Shown here: positions 13,110 to 21,537 of the stretch, one piece after another
Layout of the letters: every line of letters begins with the position of its first letter
Position numbering within the stretch: position 1 is the stretch's first letter
Assembly: GCF_000195315.1 (NCBI RefSeq)
Contig: NC_015389.1
Location: forward strand, 186,001 to 250,000
DNA length: 64,000 nt
DNA from: Coriobacterium glomerans PW2
Lineage (GTDB): Bacteria; Actinomycetota; Coriobacteriia; Coriobacteriales; Coriobacteriaceae
Direction of reading: 5' to 3'
Notes under the pieces: generated by a model
Seen by the model: the letters and a program-made list of their open reading frames with translations, nothing else
Told to the model about the DNA's origin: nothing
The model's database searches: none
Translations under genes and position numbers: made by a program

Positions 13110-14483
13110 ATGGAAATCTTCATCAGTATTCTCGCAACGCTGCTGCTCACTGTTGCGAACGGCTTCTTCGCCATGTCCGAGATGTCGCTGGTGAGCGCTA
13201 GACGCGCCGCTCTGGAGCGAGATGTCGACGCCGGTGATCCGCGTGCGAAGCGCGCGCTTGAGCTGTCATCGGATGCCACGAGCTTTCTGTCGACGATTCA
13301 GGTGGCGATAACACTCGTCGGCTTCTTCTCGGCGACGGTCGCTTCGACGAATCTCTCCAAGCCGCTCACCGCCTGGCTGCAATCGTTTGACAACAGCTCG
13401 ATCACGTTCATCGCGCCGGCGGCTGCACCGATCATCATCACGATCATCGTGTCATATCTCTCTATTGTCGTCGGCGAGCTCGTGCCGAAGCGCATGGCTC
13501 TGGCCGATGCTGAGCGCGTCGCCAAGCGCGTCGCGGGACCGGTCACCGTCTTTCAGAAGATCGCGCGACCGTTCGTCTGGCTGACCGGTATCTCGGCGAA
13601 CGCGGTGTGCTCCGTGCTGGGCGTCAAAAGTCCCGACGACCGGCAGAAGGTCTCCGAGGACGAGATCAAGTACATGGTATCCGAGCAGGCGACCTTGCTC
13701 GACGAAGAGAAGCGCATGATTCACGAGATCTTCGATCTCGGAGACTCGGTTGCTCGAGAAGTCATGGTTCCGCGCGTGGATATCACCATGGCTGAGGACA
13801 CGGACACCATCAACGATGTCATGGAGGCCATGCGCAGAACCGGCTACAGCCGCATACCGGTCTATCGTGACGACCCGGACCGAATCGTCGGAATCGCCCA
13901 TATCAAGGACCTTATCAGATATGCTCTCAACGGGCAGGGCGATGCGCCGGTCGGCGAACATCTGCGTGACGCGGATTTCGTGCCCGACACAAAGGACATC
14001 TTGCCGCTGCTCTCGGAGATGCAGACAGCTCATGATCAGATCGTCGTGGTCGTCGACGAATACGGTGGCACGGCCGGCATCATCACGATAGAGGATATCG
14101 TCGAGGAGATCGTCGGCGAAATCGAAGACGAGTTCGATCCCGACAACAAGTACCTCACGCGGCTCTCGTCGACCGAATGGCTCGTGGATGGTCGGTTCCC
14201 ATGTGATGACGCCGCAGATCTGGGCTGGCCCATCGAAGAGAGCGACGAGTATGAGACCGTTGCCGGCTGGATTCTGGAGATGTGCGGCTCGGTACCCGAT
14301 ATCGGTGAGGTTTTCGAGGTGGACGGGTACAAGTTCAAGATTCAATCGATGCGCGGACAGCGCATCTCGCTCATTCGCGTGGTTCGGGCTGCGAGGAAGC
14401 CCGGGGTCGAACAGGACGAGGCGGCCAGCGCCGAAGCGGCTGCCGAGGCGACCGCGGCCCAGGGGAGCGGCTCAGACGGTTGA
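13110..14483 (+). CDS. CNNM/CorC-type membrane protein with CBS domains (HlyC/CorC family)
   Basis: A 457-residue protein with a DUF21/CNNM membrane domain (about residues 1-190, four hydrophobic segments, including SLVSARRAALE near the start). A CBS pair follows (about 205-330, PRVDITMAEDTDT and GIITIEDIVEEIVGEI), then a CorC_HlyC C-terminal domain (345-430) and an Ala/Glu-rich tail. Family members are linked to Mg2+ or Co2+ efflux. Calling it a hemolysin is probably misleading. The start ATG at 13110 has GGGAGG about 14 bases upstream. A second Mg-type protein (MgtE-like) lies 5 kb downstream. Confidence 0.9.
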   Translation: MEIFISILATLLLTVANGFFAMSEMSLVSARRAALERDVDAGDPRAKRALELSSDATSFLSTIQVAITLVGFFSATVASTNLSKPLTAWLQSFDNSSITFIAPAAAPIIITIIVSYLSIVVGELVPKRMALADAERVAKRVAGPVTVFQKIARPFVWLTGISANAVCSVLGVKSPDDRQKVSEDEIKYMVSEQATLLDEEKRMIHEIFDLGDSVAREVMVPRVDITMAEDTDTINDVMEAMRRTGYSRIPVYRDDPDRIVGIAHIKDLIRYALNGQGDAPVGEHLRDADFVPDTKDILPLLSEMQTAHDQIVVVVDEYGGTAGIITIEDIVEEIVGEIEDEFDPDNKYLTRLSSTEWLVDGRFPCDDAADLGWPIEESDEYETVAGWILEMCGSVPDIGEVFEVDGYKFKIQSMRGQRISLIRVVRAARKPGVEQDEAASAEAAAEATAAQGSGSDG

Positions 14484-14510
14484 CGCTTCGCCGCGCGCGC
14501 GTGGTAACAT
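14480..14510 (+). promoter_or_regulatory. Putative sigma-70 promoter
   Basis: TTGACG (14480-14485) overlaps the stop of the CNNM gene, and TAACAT (14505-14510) follows at 19 bp (or GGTAAC at 17 bp). It would drive the small HxxEH protein gene starting at 14558. Confidence 0.4.
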
Positions 14511-14557
14511 CTAGGGATCGCATCGGAAACAGACGGCTTTCGAGAAACGGATTTCGC

Positions 14558-15169
14558 ATGGCAGAGCTATTTAACATCATGAAGATCACGGTTGGTCCGG
14601 AGAAGCTGTGCGCGCGCGTGCTCGTGAACCCGGGAATGCCTCTCATGACCTCTGGGGATATCGAGGCGACCGCCCGCGTCTACTATCTTGCTCCCGCGAT
14701 AGCCTCCCACGTCTGTCTGGGTGACACGGCAGGGGAGTTCAAGGATTGCATGGGCGATACGGAGGTGGCGCATCTGCTGGAGCACCTGGCAGTCGAGATC
14801 ATGAACGAAACGGGTCTCGCAGGCAGGATCTCATGTGGCAGAACGCATGGGGTCGCCGGTAAGGCGCGTCTATTCGATATAGAACTGAGCTGCCCAGACG
14901 ATATCCTGGCGATCGGTGCGCTGTCCTCAGCCTCCCACATCATGGAATGGGCTTATCTTCATGCCGACCAGACGCCGCCGGATTTCGCGGGCACGGTCTC
15001 AGCGCTCGCCAAGCTCGTTTCGAGCTTGAGGGGTGAGAGCGCGCCGCCGGTCGTCTCCGCCGCCGACGCGAGTGAATCTGCGGACGCCACCGATGTCCGC
15101 TACGCGGCACTCGATGCGGACGATGGGCGCGAACGCGACGGCTCAGCTTGGGATGACGCGATGTCTTGA
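14558..15169 (+). CDS. Stand-alone protein resembling the N-terminal domain of cyanophycin synthetase (HxxEH motif)
   Basis: A 203-residue soluble protein I recognise only partly. Residues 68-84 (DTEVAHLLEHLAVEIMN) recall the H-x-x-E-H-x-A-x-E-x motif of the cyanophycin-synthetase (CphA) N-domain. In full the HxxEH set is His72, Glu75 and His76, which is also the inverted zinc motif of M16-type peptidases. The sequence around RISCGRTHGVAGKARLFDIELS fits a compact alpha/beta domain. The last 50 residues are acidic and low-complexity. No ATP-grasp or Mur-ligase domain follows, so this is not a polymer synthetase. ATG 14558 is used although its ribosome site is weak. ATG 14579 is an alternative. 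Confidence 0.6.
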   Translation: MAELFNIMKITVGPEKLCARVLVNPGMPLMTSGDIEATARVYYLAPAIASHVCLGDTAGEFKDCMGDTEVAHLLEHLAVEIMNETGLAGRISCGRTHGVAGKARLFDIELSCPDDILAIGALSSASHIMEWAYLHADQTPPDFAGTVSALAKLVSSLRGESAPPVVSAADASESADATDVRYAALDADDGRERDGSAWDDAMS

Positions 15170-15375
15170 TCAGGCGATGAGCGTACGCGACTCTGTTCGG
15201 GAGCGACCTTGCGAGGAGCCGGCTTTCAAGGGCTGCCCCGATGCGTCTCAGCCGCTATCGGTCGGCGGTGCTTCAGGATGTGCGCACGTGAGCCCGCGGA
15301 CCACCTGTTGCGAAGGCGATCTGCGAAGACGACAGATGCAGCACGGAACCCACGACGAAACAGCCGGCTTGCGGG

Positions 15376-15381
15376 TATAAT
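15376..15381 (+). promoter_or_regulatory. -10 element TATAAT
   Basis: A perfect TATAAT lies 47 bp before the YtxH-type gene. No clear -35 hexamer is seen at the expected distance. The 258-bp stretch 15170-15427 holds no gene I can support. Confidence 0.45.
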
Positions 15382-15427
15382 GGTGTACTGCAAATGATGG
15401 CATCCCCTCTTGAAAGGAAGCAGAATC

Positions 15428-15820
15428 ATGGGTAAATCGCTAGGGTTCATCGCAGGTTCGCTGATAGGTGCGGCCGCGGGCACCGCGATAGGTATTCTGG
15501 TCGCTCCCCGCGCGGGGGCCGAGACGCGCGCCATGGCTTCCGACATGGCAAACGATGCATGGGATAGCGCGCGCGATCTGTATGAGCAGGGTGCCAAGCA
15601 GGTGCGCGAGACCGTTGACGATTTCGGTCCGATGGTTGACAGCAAGACGGATGAGCTGCGCGAGAAAGTCGATTTAGCGCGCGAGCGGATGGATCGTCTG
15701 CGGGAGTCGCTCAACGAGGCGGTGTCGGGCGGCTCGGTGAAACCGGCTGCCGATGTCGTGGTCGAGACGGCTGATTGCGCGGCTGCAGCTGCCGAGGCGA
15801 AGGCAAACGCTGGGGCATAA
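15428..15820 (+). CDS. YtxH-domain membrane-anchored protein
   Basis: A 130-residue protein beginning with one glycine/alanine-rich membrane helix (about residues 5-30, FIAGSLIGAAAGTAIGILVAPRAG) that matches the YtxH/gas-vesicle-GvpP-like family. A long amphipathic helical region follows, rich in Glu, Lys and Ala with heptad character, likely a coiled coil on one face of the membrane. The start is supported by GAAAGGAAG. The stop overlaps the next gene by one base (TAATG). B. subtilis YtxH is a general-stress protein, and a similar stress role here is inference only. Confidence 0.8.
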   Translation: MGKSLGFIAGSLIGAAAGTAIGILVAPRAGAETRAMASDMANDAWDSARDLYEQGAKQVRETVDDFGPMVDSKTDELREKVDLARERMDRLRESLNEAVSGGSVKPAADVVVETADCAAAAAEAKANAGA

Positions 15821-16605
15821 TGCTGGTCCAAGAGTTTCAGGGCCGAAAGGTGTACCGCATGCCGCCTGAGGGTCGCAGGATCCGAAGAGACGGAACGCCT
15901 CGTCGCCCCTCAAGGCTGGGTTCGATCCATTTCCCCGTGTTCACCGCCGATGGACGGCGGGTCATCGGTTTCATGGTGAAACAGCGTGATGTTGCCGGCA
16001 TGATCAAGCAGGCGGATCGCTTCGTCGCTCTGGATGCCTTGGAAACCTATGAGGGAGCCCTCTGCGTTGCGAGCAAACGGGATTCCTTCGACGCCGCTGC
16101 GGCAGCGCGTTTGGGGGTCGATCTCGACCGCTGCCTGATCTGGACCGGAATGGATGTCCGCACCGTCTCCGGGTGCGATCTCGGTTACTGCTGCGATGCG
16201 GAGTTCGACCGAGCATCGGGCACGGTGTCGTGCTTTCTCATCATATCGGGAACCGCTTCAAAAATGCTGGTGGGCTCGATTCGAATGTCCGCCGATCATC
16301 TGGTCGGTTATCGCAATGGAGCCATGCTGGTAGACGATGTTGTTCGTGACCTCGAGCTCTCTGGTGGAGCTGCGGCGAGGGCAGCCGAGGCAAGCGTGGT
16401 CATCGGCACGAGGGCCGCCGAGGCGAAGACCGTCATCGGATCGAAAGTCAAAAAAGGGGCGAAGATCGTCGATGACAAGGGGTCCGCAGCCGTCTCGAAG
16501 GGCTCGGTGGCACTCGGCAGGCAACTCGGCCGAACACGAGGTATGTTCAAAGCTTTCAAGCATGAGTACAACAGGGCGGCCGGTAACCAGAAGCGCAAGC
16601 GATGA
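15820..16605 (+). CDS. PRC-barrel domain protein
   Basis: A 261-residue protein coupled to the YtxH gene by a one-base TAATG overlap. Residues about 25-170 look like two PRC-barrel-type beta folds (IHFPVFTADGRRVIGFMVKQRDV; MVDDVV at the end of the second). The C-terminal 90 residues contain a repeated TRAAEAKTVIGSKV-type segment and a basic tail (NQKRKR). PRC barrels bind RNA or scaffold membrane proteins in other settings, but no function is known for this combination. Together with the YtxH protein it probably forms a membrane-associated pair. Confidence 0.65.
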   Translation: MLVQEFQGRKVYRMPPEGRRIRRDGTPRRPSRLGSIHFPVFTADGRRVIGFMVKQRDVAGMIKQADRFVALDALETYEGALCVASKRDSFDAAAAARLGVDLDRCLIWTGMDVRTVSGCDLGYCCDAEFDRASGTVSCFLIISGTASKMLVGSIRMSADHLVGYRNGAMLVDDVVRDLELSGGAAARAAEASVVIGTRAAEAKTVIGSKVKKGAKIVDDKGSAAVSKGSVALGRQLGRTRGMFKAFKHEYNRAAGNQKRKR

Positions 16606-16671
16606 CGCGATCGAGCACGTGCGCCGTCGCCGGCCGCTCGGCTGACTTCTGAAAACCGAGGAGAAGAACTG

Positions 16672-18057
16672 TTGTTGAATCTTGCCATCTCCCGCCCCCA
16701 CCGAAAGCGCTCCACCCGCGCAGTGTTAAAGCAGGCCAGGGCATTCCGCTCGCCTGCTGCCGGATCCCGTCGCAGGCGTCACGGGGAGGCGTATCTTCAT
16801 CGTCCGAAGCGCTCTTTTCGCAAATCGCGTCCCGCTGGGAACGGCTCGCGCGCACCGTATGCGCTCATCGCTGTCTGCTGCGCGTTCCTGTTCTTTGTCG
16901 CGAGCATAATCTGGTATGCCAATCGCGGAGTCGAAATCACTCTCAACGGCGAGAGCACGACCGTTCGCGTCGGCGAGACCGTCGAGCAGCTGATCGACGA
17001 TCAAGAGCTCGCAGATGGGCTCAAGGCGGGAAACCTGCTCGCAGTCGATGATTCGGTACTCAAAAAGGGAGGAGGCGACGCGTACAGCGTCGAGCTCAAC
17101 GGCTCCACGCTGGCGATCGGCGATGTCGCTTCGACAAAGCTTTCAGGCGGTGAGAAACTCAAGGTCAGCGATGGCGCAGATATCTATGAGGCGCATGACG
17201 TCACGGCAAGCGATATCGAACCGACGTTGAGCATGACCGGGGACGGGCCGGTCCAATACGTCAAGACATGGGGCGTCAAAGGGCGCTCTGAGATATGGAC
17301 GGGCAAGGAGTCCGGCAGGCGAGCGGATCGCGGAGTCGTCAAGCAACCGGTGAACTGCGAGGTCGAATGCGTATCGGTCAAACCTGATAACGGGCGCAAA
17401 TGCGTCGCCTTGACCTTCAACGAAGGACCGAGCGCGCATACCCGTCAGATGTTGGATATCTTGGAGCAACAAGGCGCGAAGGCCACCTTCTTTCTCACAG
17501 GCGAGGGGATCGAGGCCAATCCGGACGCGGCGAAGGCGATCGCCGATTCGGGCAACGAGATCGGATCCAACTCATATGCCTTCGAGCGCCTGTCCAAGCT
17601 CAAGGGGGATGCTCTGCGATCTCAGCTGTCGCGCGGGTTCGATGCCATCGAGTCGGCGACAGGCGAGAAGTGCGCCCTGCTGCGCGCGCCGTACGCCTCA
17701 TTTTCGGCCCAGAACTGGGCAGATTCGATGGATATGGTGTCTGCGATGGTCGGGTGGAACATCGACTCGGGCGACTGGCTGCTCAAGGGCGCGAAAAGCG
17801 TCACCGATACGGTCATCGGATCGGTGCAACCCGGCAGCATTATCTTTCTGACAGACAACTCAAGCGTCTCAGCGCAGACAGCAGCGTCGCTGCCGGCGCT
17901 CATCGACGGCCTCAAGGCTCAGGGCTATGAGTTGCTCACCCTCTCCGATCTCGTGGCCACGGACAAAGAGCTCGCAGCGGGTCTCGACCTGTCTCAGGTA
18001 TCCAAGCCCGAGGATGCCGTATTGCCCCGGGTGCCCGCCGAGCAAGGTCGCAAATGA
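16672..18057 (+). CDS. Degenerate polysaccharide-deacetylase (NodB-fold) paralogue, probably catalytically dead
   Basis: A 461-residue membrane-anchored protein: basic N-terminus, one helix (about 65-83), a DUF348/G5-like beta module (about 85-200; VEITLNGESTTVRVGETVEQLI), then a NodB fold (about 245-440). The catalytic motifs are lost. TFDDGP has become TFNEGP (248-253), the metal pair H-x3-H is N300/F304, and the late LxH motif reads Leu-Thr-Asp (T394). The structural motifs RAPY and DSGDW remain. So metal binding and hydrolysis are unlikely, while the fold is kept. Start is TTG 16672 with GAGGAG 8 bases upstream. Its intact paralogue follows 154 bp downstream. Confidence 0.85.
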   Translation: MLNLAISRPHRKRSTRAVLKQARAFRSPAAGSRRRRHGEAYLHRPKRSFRKSRPAGNGSRAPYALIAVCCAFLFFVASIIWYANRGVEITLNGESTTVRVGETVEQLIDDQELADGLKAGNLLAVDDSVLKKGGGDAYSVELNGSTLAIGDVASTKLSGGEKLKVSDGADIYEAHDVTASDIEPTLSMTGDGPVQYVKTWGVKGRSEIWTGKESGRRADRGVVKQPVNCEVECVSVKPDNGRKCVALTFNEGPSAHTRQMLDILEQQGAKATFFLTGEGIEANPDAAKAIADSGNEIGSNSYAFERLSKLKGDALRSQLSRGFDAIESATGEKCALLRAPYASFSAQNWADSMDMVSAMVGWNIDSGDWLLKGAKSVTDTVIGSVQPGSIIFLTDNSSVSAQTAASLPALIDGLKAQGYELLTLSDLVATDKELAAGLDLSQVSKPEDAVLPRVPAEQGRK

Positions 18058-18211
18058 GACGCGCGCACTCATCTGAAATCTCTCGCGAGGATCGCTGAGC
18101 GCATTCGGGTTTGCCTGCGCGCGTCGAGACGGCTAGGCTACACATGAGGGGTGCGTCAAAGATCGAGCGGCCTGTTCGCATCGAGCCGAAGTCCGAGGGG
18201 AGGGGCAGGCC

Positions 18212-19537
18212 ATGAGCAGATCCGAGCTGGATGGGCGCGCGATCGCATCGAAGGCGGACAGCGCACCGAACCGGTCTGATCGAGCTGCAGCGGTGTCAGC
18301 CAGAGCGCGAGTCGCCGAGCGTCCCCACGCGAATGCTTCCAGAGGACGCAGGCGCTCAGAGCTGTCTTGCATGTTCGCAGCATATGCGCTGATATCATTC
18401 GGACTCGTGGTGTGCTGGTGCCTCCTGTGGCGCGAAGTGCCCGTGACCGTCAACGGCCGGCAGCGGATCGTCCGCATCGCCACACCGATCCGAGACCTCC
18501 TCGAGCAGAACGCATACTTCGGGGCCAAGCCCGGCAAGCTGCTTTCCATCGGAGGCAACGTTCTCTCGGAAGATGGCGGAAACTCCTGTTCCGTGACATA
18601 TGGTGGAGCGCAGCTGGATCCCGCCCAGATCGCTTCATACCGTCTGCACGAGGGAGACGAGCTCACGGTGGATGATGGCAAGGATGTGCAAGAGGGCCAC
18701 ATCGAGACCACGGTGGATGTCCCCCCGGGCATACAGATGGATCGCGGCGGCGCCGTGCAGTTCGTGTCCCGATGGGGAAAGGCGGGCGTGAAGACCGTAT
18801 GGACCGGTCGGAGGTCCAAAGAGGTGATCGATAGACAGATCACGAAACTCCCTGTTGACATGATCGTGCGCTCGATCAATCTCGAGCCGAAGGCCGATCG
18901 TCCCTGTGTGGCCCTCACCTTCGATGACGGTCCCAGCTCGTTCACACCGAAGGTGCTCGACATCCTGGCTCAGAAAGGCGTGAAGGCCACATTTTTCAAT
19001 TTGGGTGCCAACGTGATGCGCGACCCCGCTGCCGCCCGCGCCATCACGGATGCCGGCTGCGCACTCGGCAATCACACGATGACGCATATGAATCTGACGA
19101 CGGTCGACCGCGACACGCTCAGAAGCGAGATCTCGCGCTCCGCTGACATCCTGAGGGGGACCGGCGCCTCGCCGCAGATGATCAGAGCGCCCTACGGTGC
19201 CTTTACCGCAGCCGAATGGGCGCGATCAGGCGATCTCATCGGATCCAACATATTGTGGAACATCGATACCAGGGACTGGACGCGACCGGGGGCGAACAAG
19301 ATCGCCGGGGCGGTGCTCGACGGCGCGAAGAACGGATCGATCATTCTCATGCACGATGGAGGCGGGGACCGCTCTCAAGACGTACAGGCGCTGCCCGGTA
19401 TCATCGACGAGCTGCACAAGAGGGGATTTGCCTTCGTCACGGTGCCCGAGATGATGAAACTCGACGGCAGGATCCCTGATGCGGTTGTGGGGGGCACAAC
19501 CAGATTGCCTGATGATTGCGGCATGCCCGACTCCTAG
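18212..19537 (+). CDS. Membrane-anchored polysaccharide deacetylase (NodB domain, intact)
   Basis: A 441-residue paralogue of the preceding protein with the same plan: basic N-terminus, one helix (about 52-70), a DUF348/G5-like module (VTVNGRQRIVRIATPIRDLLEQ) and an extracellular NodB domain. All motifs are intact: TFDDGP (236-241), NHTMTH with His288 and His292, RAPYGAF, DTRDW and the catalytic LMHD with His381. It should deacetylate GlcNAc or MurNAc of peptidoglycan or another wall polymer, which often gives lysozyme resistance. The ATG 18212 has GAGGGGAGGGG upstream. Duplication followed by decay of one copy is the simplest history of the pair. Confidence 0.9.
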   Translation: MSRSELDGRAIASKADSAPNRSDRAAAVSARARVAERPHANASRGRRRSELSCMFAAYALISFGLVVCWCLLWREVPVTVNGRQRIVRIATPIRDLLEQNAYFGAKPGKLLSIGGNVLSEDGGNSCSVTYGGAQLDPAQIASYRLHEGDELTVDDGKDVQEGHIETTVDVPPGIQMDRGGAVQFVSRWGKAGVKTVWTGRRSKEVIDRQITKLPVDMIVRSINLEPKADRPCVALTFDDGPSSFTPKVLDILAQKGVKATFFNLGANVMRDPAAARAITDAGCALGNHTMTHMNLTTVDRDTLRSEISRSADILRGTGASPQMIRAPYGAFTAAEWARSGDLIGSNILWNIDTRDWTRPGANKIAGAVLDGAKNGSIILMHDGGGDRSQDVQALPGIIDELHKRGFAFVTVPEMMKLDGRIPDAVVGGTTRLPDDCGMPDS

Positions 19538-19550
19538 CGCCCTCGACGGA

Positions 19551-19559
19551 TGCTATAGT
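19551..19559 (+). promoter_or_regulatory. Extended -10 promoter element
   Basis: TGCTATAGT, identical to the element at 12109-12117, stands 137 bp before the MgtE-like gene. This leaves an untranslated leader of about 130 bases. No known Mg-sensing riboswitch fold could be recognised in that leader by eye. Confidence 0.45.
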
Positions 19560-19695
19560 GGATTTCGTTGCGTCACGCTGGTGCGCCGAGGGCTCCTGCG
19601 AGGCGATGAGCTGAGCCGTGCGCCGCGATGCGTCTCGCGTGTCTCAGCTGGCTGATCATGTGTGCGAGTCCAGGACTTGGCGATAAGGGAGCCCG

Positions 19696-21537
19696 ATGAA
19701 ATACTTCTCTGAAATGATCGACCTTCCCGTTCTGGACAGCCACGGCGAGAATCTCGGGGTTCTGCAGGATCTCGGAGTCGCCCCTGCCGAGGTGTTCCCC
19801 CATGTCACCTCAATCGTGTTCCACAAGGTGAAGGAGGCCGCTGCAGTCGTGTGCTGGGAGGGGTGCGTCGATCATGTGGATGCTCAAGGCGTCCACCTCG
19901 CCGTGACGGCCGACGAGATCAGGCCGGCGGAACGGGAGGAGGCACAGGTTCTGCTCGCCCGTGACATTCTGAACAAGCAGTTCGTGGACACGCAGGCCGT
20001 GAAGGTCGCACGCGCGAACGATCTCAAGCTGTCGCAATCGGGTCCCAGACAGTTGCGGCTTCTCGGTGCCGAGATCGGCGTTTCGGGACTTCTCCGCGCC
20101 CTCAGTCCCGCAGTCGAGCGAATCGCCTGCCGAATCTGCTCATCGGTGGGCAAGCCGCTCACCGAGAGAATCGTCGCGTGGTCCTACATGGATCTTCTCG
20201 ATCGCAACATCGATGAGATACGCGCTTCGGTGTCGCACAAGACGATCAACGAGCTTCACCCGGCAGACATCGCAGATATCATCGAACAGGTCGATCCGGC
20301 ATCGGGATGCGCGATCTTCGCTCAGCTCGATACCGCGCAGGCGGCCGAGACGATCGCCGAGATCGATGATGAGGACCTTCTCGAAGAGCTGCTCAAAGGT
20401 GTGGCGGACGGCGAGATTTCCGCCATGCTCGCGCATATGGATCCTGATGACGCCGCAGCTTTCATCGGGGACCTCGATCAGCAGCGAGGCGACGCCCTGC
20501 TGCAGCTCATGGATGAGCGAGATGAGCACGCGATCAAAAGACTGCTGAGCTATCAGGAGAACACAGCTGGCCGGATCATGACGTCGGAGTTCGTGGCGCT
20601 GCCGGGATATGCCAAGGTCTGCGATGCCTTCGCAGCGATCCGCAGGCTCGAGGAGGACTTCGAGAGCATCTACTATGTGTACACGGTGGACGAAGCGGGT
20701 GCGCTCACCGGCGTTCTCTCGCTCAGGACGCTCATCTCAGCCCAGGAGAGCGATCGTCTGCAGGATCTGGCCTTTCGCGATCTGGTCTGGGTCGCTCCGC
20801 AGCTCGATCAGGAGGACGTGGCAGACGAGATGACGAAGTACAATCTCGTCGCGGTTCCCGTCTGTGACGGGGATCGTCGCATCCTGGGCATCGTGACCGT
20901 CGACGATGCCCTCGATGTCATCGCCGAGGAGCACGACGAAGATCTGAGGATCGCCGGCATCGGCAGGGGCGACAACGCGACCGGCGAGTCGACGCATATG
21001 CTGGTCTGGTTCGCTCAACGTCAGTACTGGGTGCTCATTTGGGCGCTGGCATCCGCTGCAGGAGCCGCCGCCCTCGGGGCGCTCGATGCAGATCCGGCGC
21101 TGATCCTGTACCCCATGTGCGCCATGCCCGTGGCGCTGCTCGCCTCCGGCGGCATGGTCTCGTTCGTGAAGAACTACTTTCTCGAGCACGACGACCGTGA
21201 GGGCACGCAGAGCGCATACGGTGCGTTTCTCTTGAAGACCACGGTGGTCGGCGTTGTTCTTGCAGCACTTGTTCTGGCGTGCGCGTACCTTGTCGACGAT
21301 ATCGCGCTCCCAGATGCCACTCAGGCCGAGCGGGATCTCTTCCTGGCCTGCTTCGCAGCCGCCGCCGCGGTGACGCTTCTCAGCGCCGTCGGTGCGATCG
21401 GATGCCTGAGACTGCTGCGCTGGCGCGATGAGCACGATCTCAACACGTCGGGCACCGCACTCGGCGTGATCTCCACGCTGATATCGGCGGTGCTGTTCAC
21501 AGCGATCTCGATCGCCGCCGTTATCGCCATGGCGTGA
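19696..21537 (+). CDS. Divergent MgtE-like protein with N-terminal PRC-type module, CBS pair and altered membrane domain
   Basis: A 613-residue protein. Residues 1-160 contain PRC-barrel-like stretches not usual in MgtE. About 165-300 is the MgtE N-domain, helical repeats rich in D/E such as LDTAQAAETIAEIDDEDLLEELL. About 300-415 is a CBS pair (GRIMTSEFVALPGYAKVCDAF; ILGIVTVDDALDVI). About 440-613 holds about five helices. The transporter signature of MgtE (a GGNAG-type turn and a conserved membrane Asp before DP-x-T) is not present. The corresponding place reads PVALLASGGMVSFVKN. It may be a Mg-responsive regulator or a transporter for something else. ATG 19696 follows AGGGAG. Confidence 0.75.
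   Translation: MKYFSEMIDLPVLDSHGENLGVLQDLGVAPAEVFPHVTSIVFHKVKEAAAVVCWEGCVDHVDAQGVHLAVTADEIRPAEREEAQVLLARDILNKQFVDTQAVKVARANDLKLSQSGPRQLRLLGAEIGVSGLLRALSPAVERIACRICSSVGKPLTERIVAWSYMDLLDRNIDEIRASVSHKTINELHPADIADIIEQVDPASGCAIFAQLDTAQAAETIAEIDDEDLLEELLKGVADGEISAMLAHMDPDDAAAFIGDLDQQRGDALLQLMDERDEHAIKRLLSYQENTAGRIMTSEFVALPGYAKVCDAFAAIRRLEEDFESIYYVYTVDEAGALTGVLSLRTLISAQESDRLQDLAFRDLVWVAPQLDQEDVADEMTKYNLVAVPVCDGDRRILGIVTVDDALDVIAEEHDEDLRIAGIGRGDNATGESTHMLVWFAQRQYWVLIWALASAAGAAALGALDADPALILYPMCAMPVALLASGGMVSFVKNYFLEHDDREGTQSAYGAFLLKTTVVGVVLAALVLACAYLVDDIALPDATQAERDLFLACFAAAAAVTLLSAVGAIGCLRLLRWRDEHDLNTSGTALGVISTLISAVLFTAISIAAVIAMA

Follow-up and report, generated by a model that had tools for sequence, protein, structure and literature searches.

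A NodB-domain protein lacking the CE4 active site is conserved across the Coriobacteriaceae, often without its intact paralogue

The 64,000 bp segment of Coriobacterium glomerans PW2 analysed here (the window, part of a genome of 2,115,681 bases in a single contig) contains two tandem genes coding for NodB proteins, of which the upstream one, C1, has lost the metal ligands and catalytic residues of the CE4 active site, and the downstream one, C2, has them all. The same residues are missing from C1 throughout the Coriobacteriaceae, where C1 is nearly universal and the intact C2 is frequently absent, such that the dead copy is the retained one, reversing the earlier picture of an active enzyme with an accessory relative. 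Sequence comparisons give good support for regarding C1 as a pseudoenzyme, and it probably has a non-enzymatic job of its own.

C1 (461 aa, with a TTG start) and C2 (441 aa) are encoded at coordinates 16672–18057 and 18212–19537, on the forward strand, as are the other window features located below. Both open reading frames are intact and both products match PF01522 well above its cut-off of 23.1 bits (95.4 bits for C1, 112.9 bits for C2), in agreement with a preliminary description of the locus as two neighbouring paralogues of one plan, the first with neither frameshift nor stop. That common plan consists of a basic tail, one membrane helix, an ectodomain, and the NodB domain. In C1 the basic cytosolic tail (residues 1–59; 16672–16848) is disordered in the structural model, and is followed by an unusually conserved membrane helix (residues 61–83; 16852–16920), an ectodomain (residues 85–236; 16924–17379) in which the model and Foldseek suggest a ubiquitin-like (DUF348-type) part and then a G5-like part, and the dead NodB domain (residues 239–430; 17386–17961), recognized by both PF01522 and Foldseek. 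Most C1 orthologues (e.g. those at L034 and L050) share a TTG start in the conserved context GGAGAACCA-TTG-CCTAACTACACCACC, corresponding to the start at 16672 in the window, and those of the Collinsella aerofaciens group and of genus g6 mostly start with ATG; the weak TTG start, where kept, may limit C1 expression. C. glomerans has a third NodB protein (G000:C1:760663-761028; L003), which is of a different type with the motif TFDDGE and, judged by eye, a repeat-like domain in front; similar proteins are present in G003, G008, and G023.

The CE4 site of C2 is complete, with T236-FDDG-P241 (D238 and D239; motif 1 at 18917–18934), H288, H292, and H381. Alignment places N250, E251, N300, F304, and T394 of C1 at the same five positions; base, acid, and the complete metal triad are thus lost, five residues out of five. 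E251, N300, and F304 stand in place of the Asp-His-His metal triad, and N250 and T394 in place of the base Asp and acid His. Motif 1 reads TFNEGP (17413–17430; TFDEGP in most relatives), motif 2 is NSYAF instead of H(S/T)xxH (17569–17583), and the His-Asp of motif 5 is replaced by T394-D395 (17851–17856). Motif 3 (R338-APY, with R338, P340, and Y341) is retained, as is motif 4 (D365-SGD-W369, with the D..DW signature; 17764–17778). The motif 5 equivalent (LTD, residues 393–395) sits at the C-terminal side, and C1 therefore has the standard motif order and not the NodB2 arrangement. The individual residues reported in the preliminary description, including the RAPY and DW motifs kept by C1, are all confirmed. 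The statement in its title that every catalytic motif is lost from C1 is correct for the base, metal, and acid residues, but goes slightly too far in that motifs 3 and 4 are kept and the base Asp is present in 59 of the 66 C1 sequences.

None of the 66 C1 sequences has either metal His or the catalytic His, and orthologues with intact motifs, which would have pointed to a merely local loss, are thus absent. Local decay confined to the window is ruled out by these degenerate orthologues across the family. Position 250 is Asp in 59 sequences and Asn in seven, position 251 is Glu in 60 and never Asp, positions 300 and 304 are Asn in 61 and Asp in 57, respectively, and never His, and position 394 is Thr in 63 and Ser in three, again never His. 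R338, S366, G367, D368, and D395 are invariant (66/66), and D365 is present in 64. The base Asp of motif 1 is lost only in the lineage of the window, in genus g6, and in a few others, and the C. glomerans protein has lost two more site residues than most of its relatives.

The prevalence of D250, E251 (60/66), N300, and D304 together with invariant R338 and D368 raises the question of whether C1 is an enzyme with changed chemistry, in which a different metal is bound by Glu-Asn-Asp at the Asp-His-His positions, and Asp250 with Arg338 still serves as base. This is quite unlikely, as the set is lost in the window, genus g6, and others: the window protein has Asn, Glu, Asn, and Phe at these positions, genus g6 has Asn at 250, Leu or Gly at 251, and Met at 300, the gene is retained nonetheless, and Thr or Ser replaces the catalytic acid throughout the 66 sequences. 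The residue frequencies are suggestive of an all-oxygen metal site in the C1 pocket, yet such a site is not conserved in all lineages and was set aside. Independent losses of CE4 residues also occur in some NodB proteins of other families of the order, several of them encoded beside the same PRC gene; these include proteins lacking the second metal His and acid His (L130 3129-4631), the metal Asp (L132 3207-4565 and L137 2539-5034), or both metal His residues (L242 1315-3051).

C1 is present in 66 of the 67 Coriobacteriaceae genomes searched, counting the window's own, at 44–58% identity; the set includes Collinsella and Enorma, with Coriobacterium represented by the C. glomerans genome only. 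The one exception is G015, a 96% complete draft in which C1 was not found. The reading frame is intact in nearly all orthologues, ruling out an assembly or frameshift artefact. In the Enorma massiliensis assembly (L148 5896-7170) the N-terminal tail and the remainder of C1 seem to lie in different frames, owing to either a frameshift or a sequencing error.

Selection was assessed as NG86 median dN/dS among 24 species of the C. aerofaciens group, in which C1 stands without C2. The values for C1 are 0.073 for the NodB domain, 0.068 for the ectodomain, 0.114 for the tail, and 0.086 overall, and those of neighbouring genes are similar, at 0.027 (MgtE), 0.057 (CorC), 0.072 (PRC), 0.093 (YtxH), and 0.111 (a 229-aa protein). 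In six close species pairs that have both NodB genes dN/dS ranges from 0.039 to 0.152 for C1 and from 0.074 to 0.365 for C2, and is lower for C1 in five of the six; distant pairs are near saturation and were left out, and the C. glomerans branch lies outside the dN/dS sample. Within the C. aerofaciens group C1 thus experiences strong purifying selection. Neutral evolution, the second outcome that would have told against a functional pseudoenzyme, is ruled out for the species sampled by the values of about 0.04–0.15 in close pairs and by that of the NodB domain in the C. aerofaciens clade. With its catalytic residues gone in all orthologues and purifying selection acting on it, C1 corresponds to a conserved pseudoenzyme and not to a decaying pseudogene. 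The latter is suggested by the loss of the catalytic residues and by a window copy more degenerate than most relatives, but frames intact through nearly the whole family, dN/dS of about 0.07, and conserved gene order refute it for the family, and we regard it as extremely improbable overall.

A genome-wide protein search found C2 to be absent from 33 of the 67 Coriobacteriaceae genomes, 31 of which are at least 95% complete, and its pattern of presence and absence needs at least seven changes on the C1 tree. When all 33 genomes were searched with PF01522, C1 was the only NodB protein found in 31 of them, C. aerofaciens being one such case; the other two (G023 and G079) each have one further weakly matching NodB protein, that of G023 being of a different type. 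The gap separating C1 from MgtE is mostly 0.2–0.5 kb and yielded no remnant of C2, and this short gap together with the PF01522 searches rules out that C2 was missed in the 33 genomes through fragmentation. At L056, L060, and L098 the gap is 1.7–1.9 kb as opposed to about 0.3 kb, possibly reflecting an insertion other than C2.

These observations bear on the proposal that C1 is a subunit of C2, which it activates, inhibits, or competes with for substrate. The genes are adjacent, paralogous, and of the same architecture, and inactive relatives often regulate active enzymes, as with EnvC and its amidases (cited in PMC4505593). However, C1 is kept in the 33 genomes without C2, and in the C. aerofaciens group, which has C1 alone, the purifying selection on it is strong. 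As half of the family has no C2, serving this partner cannot be the general purpose of C1, and we consider the subunit proposal very unlikely. The preliminary suggestion of an activator or decoy of an active partner thus fails as a description of the conserved function.

The pair lies in a conserved gene block. The order CorC, 229-aa protein, YtxH, PRC-barrel, NodB, MgtE (13110–21537) is kept across the Coriobacteriaceae and is partly preserved in other families; the stretch from CorC to NodB recurs, whole or in part, in many genomes throughout the taxonomic order. The 229-aa protein has weak similarity to the N-terminus of cyanophycin synthetase. The YtxH family gene (15410–15820) matches PF12732 with 66 bits and is followed by the PRC-barrel gene (15775–16605), which has no Pfam match in the window but is identified by synteny and by orthologues that pass the PF05239 cut-off. 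The MgtE-like gene downstream (19696–21537) flanks the NodB gene or genes in the Coriobacteriaceae and in a sister family. The conserved order suggests a functional envelope or magnesium-related cluster, and offers a circumstantial pointer to a partner of C1.

Outside the Coriobacteriaceae just one NodB gene occupies the slot behind YtxH and PRC; its motifs are nearly always complete, and at L226, L227, and L231 it is followed by MgtE. The pair is therefore best read as an in-place tandem duplication of which the upstream copy was inactivated. In the careful tree the C1 sequences fall into one clade and the C2 sequences into another (support 100/100 and 100/99, respectively). Their grouping together has a support of 96 in a quick tree, the wider careful tree gives no more than 45/26 on this question, and a single C1 plus C2 clade is not rejected by the AU test (p 0.50); the duplication is thus placed at or before the Coriobacteriaceae ancestor. 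The C1 stem is longer than that of C2 in both the quick tree (0.64 vs 0.30) and the careful tree (0.45 vs 0.26), as expected for a changed function.

Conservation has shifted along the protein. Mean values for 36 C1 and 28 C2 representatives are 0.61 and 0.35 in the tail, 0.78 and 0.49 in the membrane helix, 0.73 and 0.64 in the ectodomain, and 0.72 and 0.79 in the NodB domain. Within the NodB domain the five motifs score 0.92 versus 0.76 for the rest in C2, and 0.79 versus 0.70 in C1 (p 0.02 vs random blocks). The groove of C1 is thus still somewhat favoured, but C1 has gained conservation chiefly in the helix and tail, suggesting a partner within the membrane or in the cytosol. The tail motif YLNHSQGFGR is conserved in most relatives, and reads YLHRPKRSFR in C. 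glomerans. Short RPH.R[RK]-like stretches are common to the basic tails of C1, C2, and the NodB types at L095, L096, and L097. A DNA pattern search with the cytosolic RPHMR[RK]A motif as a pointer to partners located only three places in eight genomes.

The main rival to a glycan-binding role for C1 is that its NodB domain is an inert spacer or folding platform with no glycan in the groove, the selected function residing in the tail, helix, and G5-like ectodomain, as in a localisation or assembly factor. The far higher conservation of tail and helix than in C2, the lower conservation of the NodB domain, and the further variation of old-site residues in several lineages (genus g6, L107, L113, and L128) all fit this, and folding alone could account for the conserved residues of the groove. 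Against it stand the NodB dN/dS of 0.073, the invariance of S366, G367, D368, R338, and D395, and a slight excess of conservation in the motif columns over the remainder of the C1 NodB domain, and we judge it a real but minority prospect.

Modelling of C1 with AlphaFold on 40 sequences gave a mean pLDDT of 86, with the NodB domain mostly above 90, and Foldseek matches this domain to SpPgdA, PdaC, Bc1960, BA0150, and BA3943, the CE4 structures giving E values of about 1e-17. PF01522 score and fold thus both identify a NodB homology domain. The ectodomain modelled alone has a pLDDT of 90 and resembles the G5 modules of SasG/Aap, RpfB, and ThiS/ubiquitin-like folds, which fits the DUF348/G5-like label given to it in the preliminary description. 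Pfam DUF348 itself has weak, sub-threshold matches in five of 37 C1 orthologues (best E 0.007), and the window protein gives no profile match for a DUF348 plus G5 ectodomain. The RpfB and SasG/Aap G5 wall proteins share ubiquitin-like and G5-like folds with C1 but have no NodB domain, and the likeness is local only (TM-score by query 0.2–0.35); by analogy and in the model, an ectodomain of this kind would fit a wall-facing role for C1.

The closest relatives in architecture are C2 and the single NodB proteins of other Coriobacteriia, PgdA-like deacetylases that occupy the same slot behind PRC, some before MgtE; unlike C1, they have complete CE4 motifs 1–5 with few exceptions. The best-scoring NCBIfam model for C1 is PdaB (TIGR02764), although at 144.4 bits against a cut-off of 237.4, and C2 scores the same. 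BA0150, the PdaB homologue, resembles C1 in having a metal-free NodB fold, changes in motifs 1 and 2, and an N-terminal membrane anchor, whereas C1 additionally has the DUF348-G5-like ectodomain and groups with the Coriobacteriia NodB proteins. This Bacillus protein (PDB 4M1B) has been called a pseudoenzyme or catalytically inert (PMC10967932, PMC6115787). BA3943, also from Bacillus (PDB 7BKF, 6HPA, 6HM9), is likewise described in the PDB as a pseudoenzyme; it has a NodB fold and an additional domain at the N-terminus (Foldseek E about 1e-16, about 25% identity to C1), but departs at motif 1 and not at motif 2 (PMC6115787), whereas C1 also lacks motif 2 and the motif 5 His. Certain or probable CE4 pseudoenzymes are known in Bacillus and Encephalitozoon, namely BA0150, BA3943, and EcCDA-2VYO (PMC10967932, PDB titles). 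C1 belongs to none of these, given its score below the PdaB cut-off, its motif order unlike that of NodB2, and its place among the NodB proteins of Coriobacteriia. A literature search, with most subscription journals outside its scope, found no paper on C1, and a search for Collinsella wall deacetylases returned nothing relevant.

BA0330 and BA0331 are the nearest experimental precedent for the role proposed for C1. These lipoproteins of CE4 fold bind peptidoglycan but show no detectable activity, versions mutated at the base still complement the mutants, and their role is a non-catalytic, wall-stabilising one (PMC4505593). Like C1 they are wall-facing, membrane-attached NodB proteins, but they keep the Asp-His-His site, are of the rearranged NodB2 type, and have an Fn3 domain, whereas C1 has no metal site and the standard motif order.

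On balance we lean towards C1 being an ancient, clade-wide pseudoenzyme that most likely acts as a membrane-anchored, wall-binding scaffold or sensor. A gene for a membrane-anchored DUF348-G5-NodB deacetylase would have been duplicated at its own locus, the upstream copy would have been deprived of its metal site and acid residue before the extant Coriobacteriaceae split, and this inactivated copy would have been kept for a non-catalytic job. Peptidoglycan or a similar glycan of the wall would be bound, uncleaved, by the G5-like ectodomain and the metal-free NodB groove, and a putative partner in or beneath the membrane would be contacted by the conserved helix and the tail in the cytosol. The glycan-binding subunit put forward in the preliminary description is possible as part of such a role. 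More speculative, and in our view doubtful, is that C1 founds a family-wide set of envelope receptors. In this view a deacetylase fold would have turned into a peptidoglycan sensor, with the state of the wall read by the dead groove and relayed through helix and tail to the putative partner, and the enzyme of the pair would later have become dispensable in half of the family.

The C1/C2 locus provides a clean natural example of the conversion of an enzyme to a pseudoenzyme, in which duplication, loss, and later disposal of the active copy can be traced over 67 genomes. Annotation pipelines are likely to label C1 as a peptidoglycan deacetylase. Since C1 is the only NodB-type 'deacetylase' found in C. 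aerofaciens, which is common in the human gut, its presence should not be read as a sign that the wall is deacetylated or that the cell resists lysozyme. The genomes without C2 permit the function of the dead protein to be tested free of its active sister.
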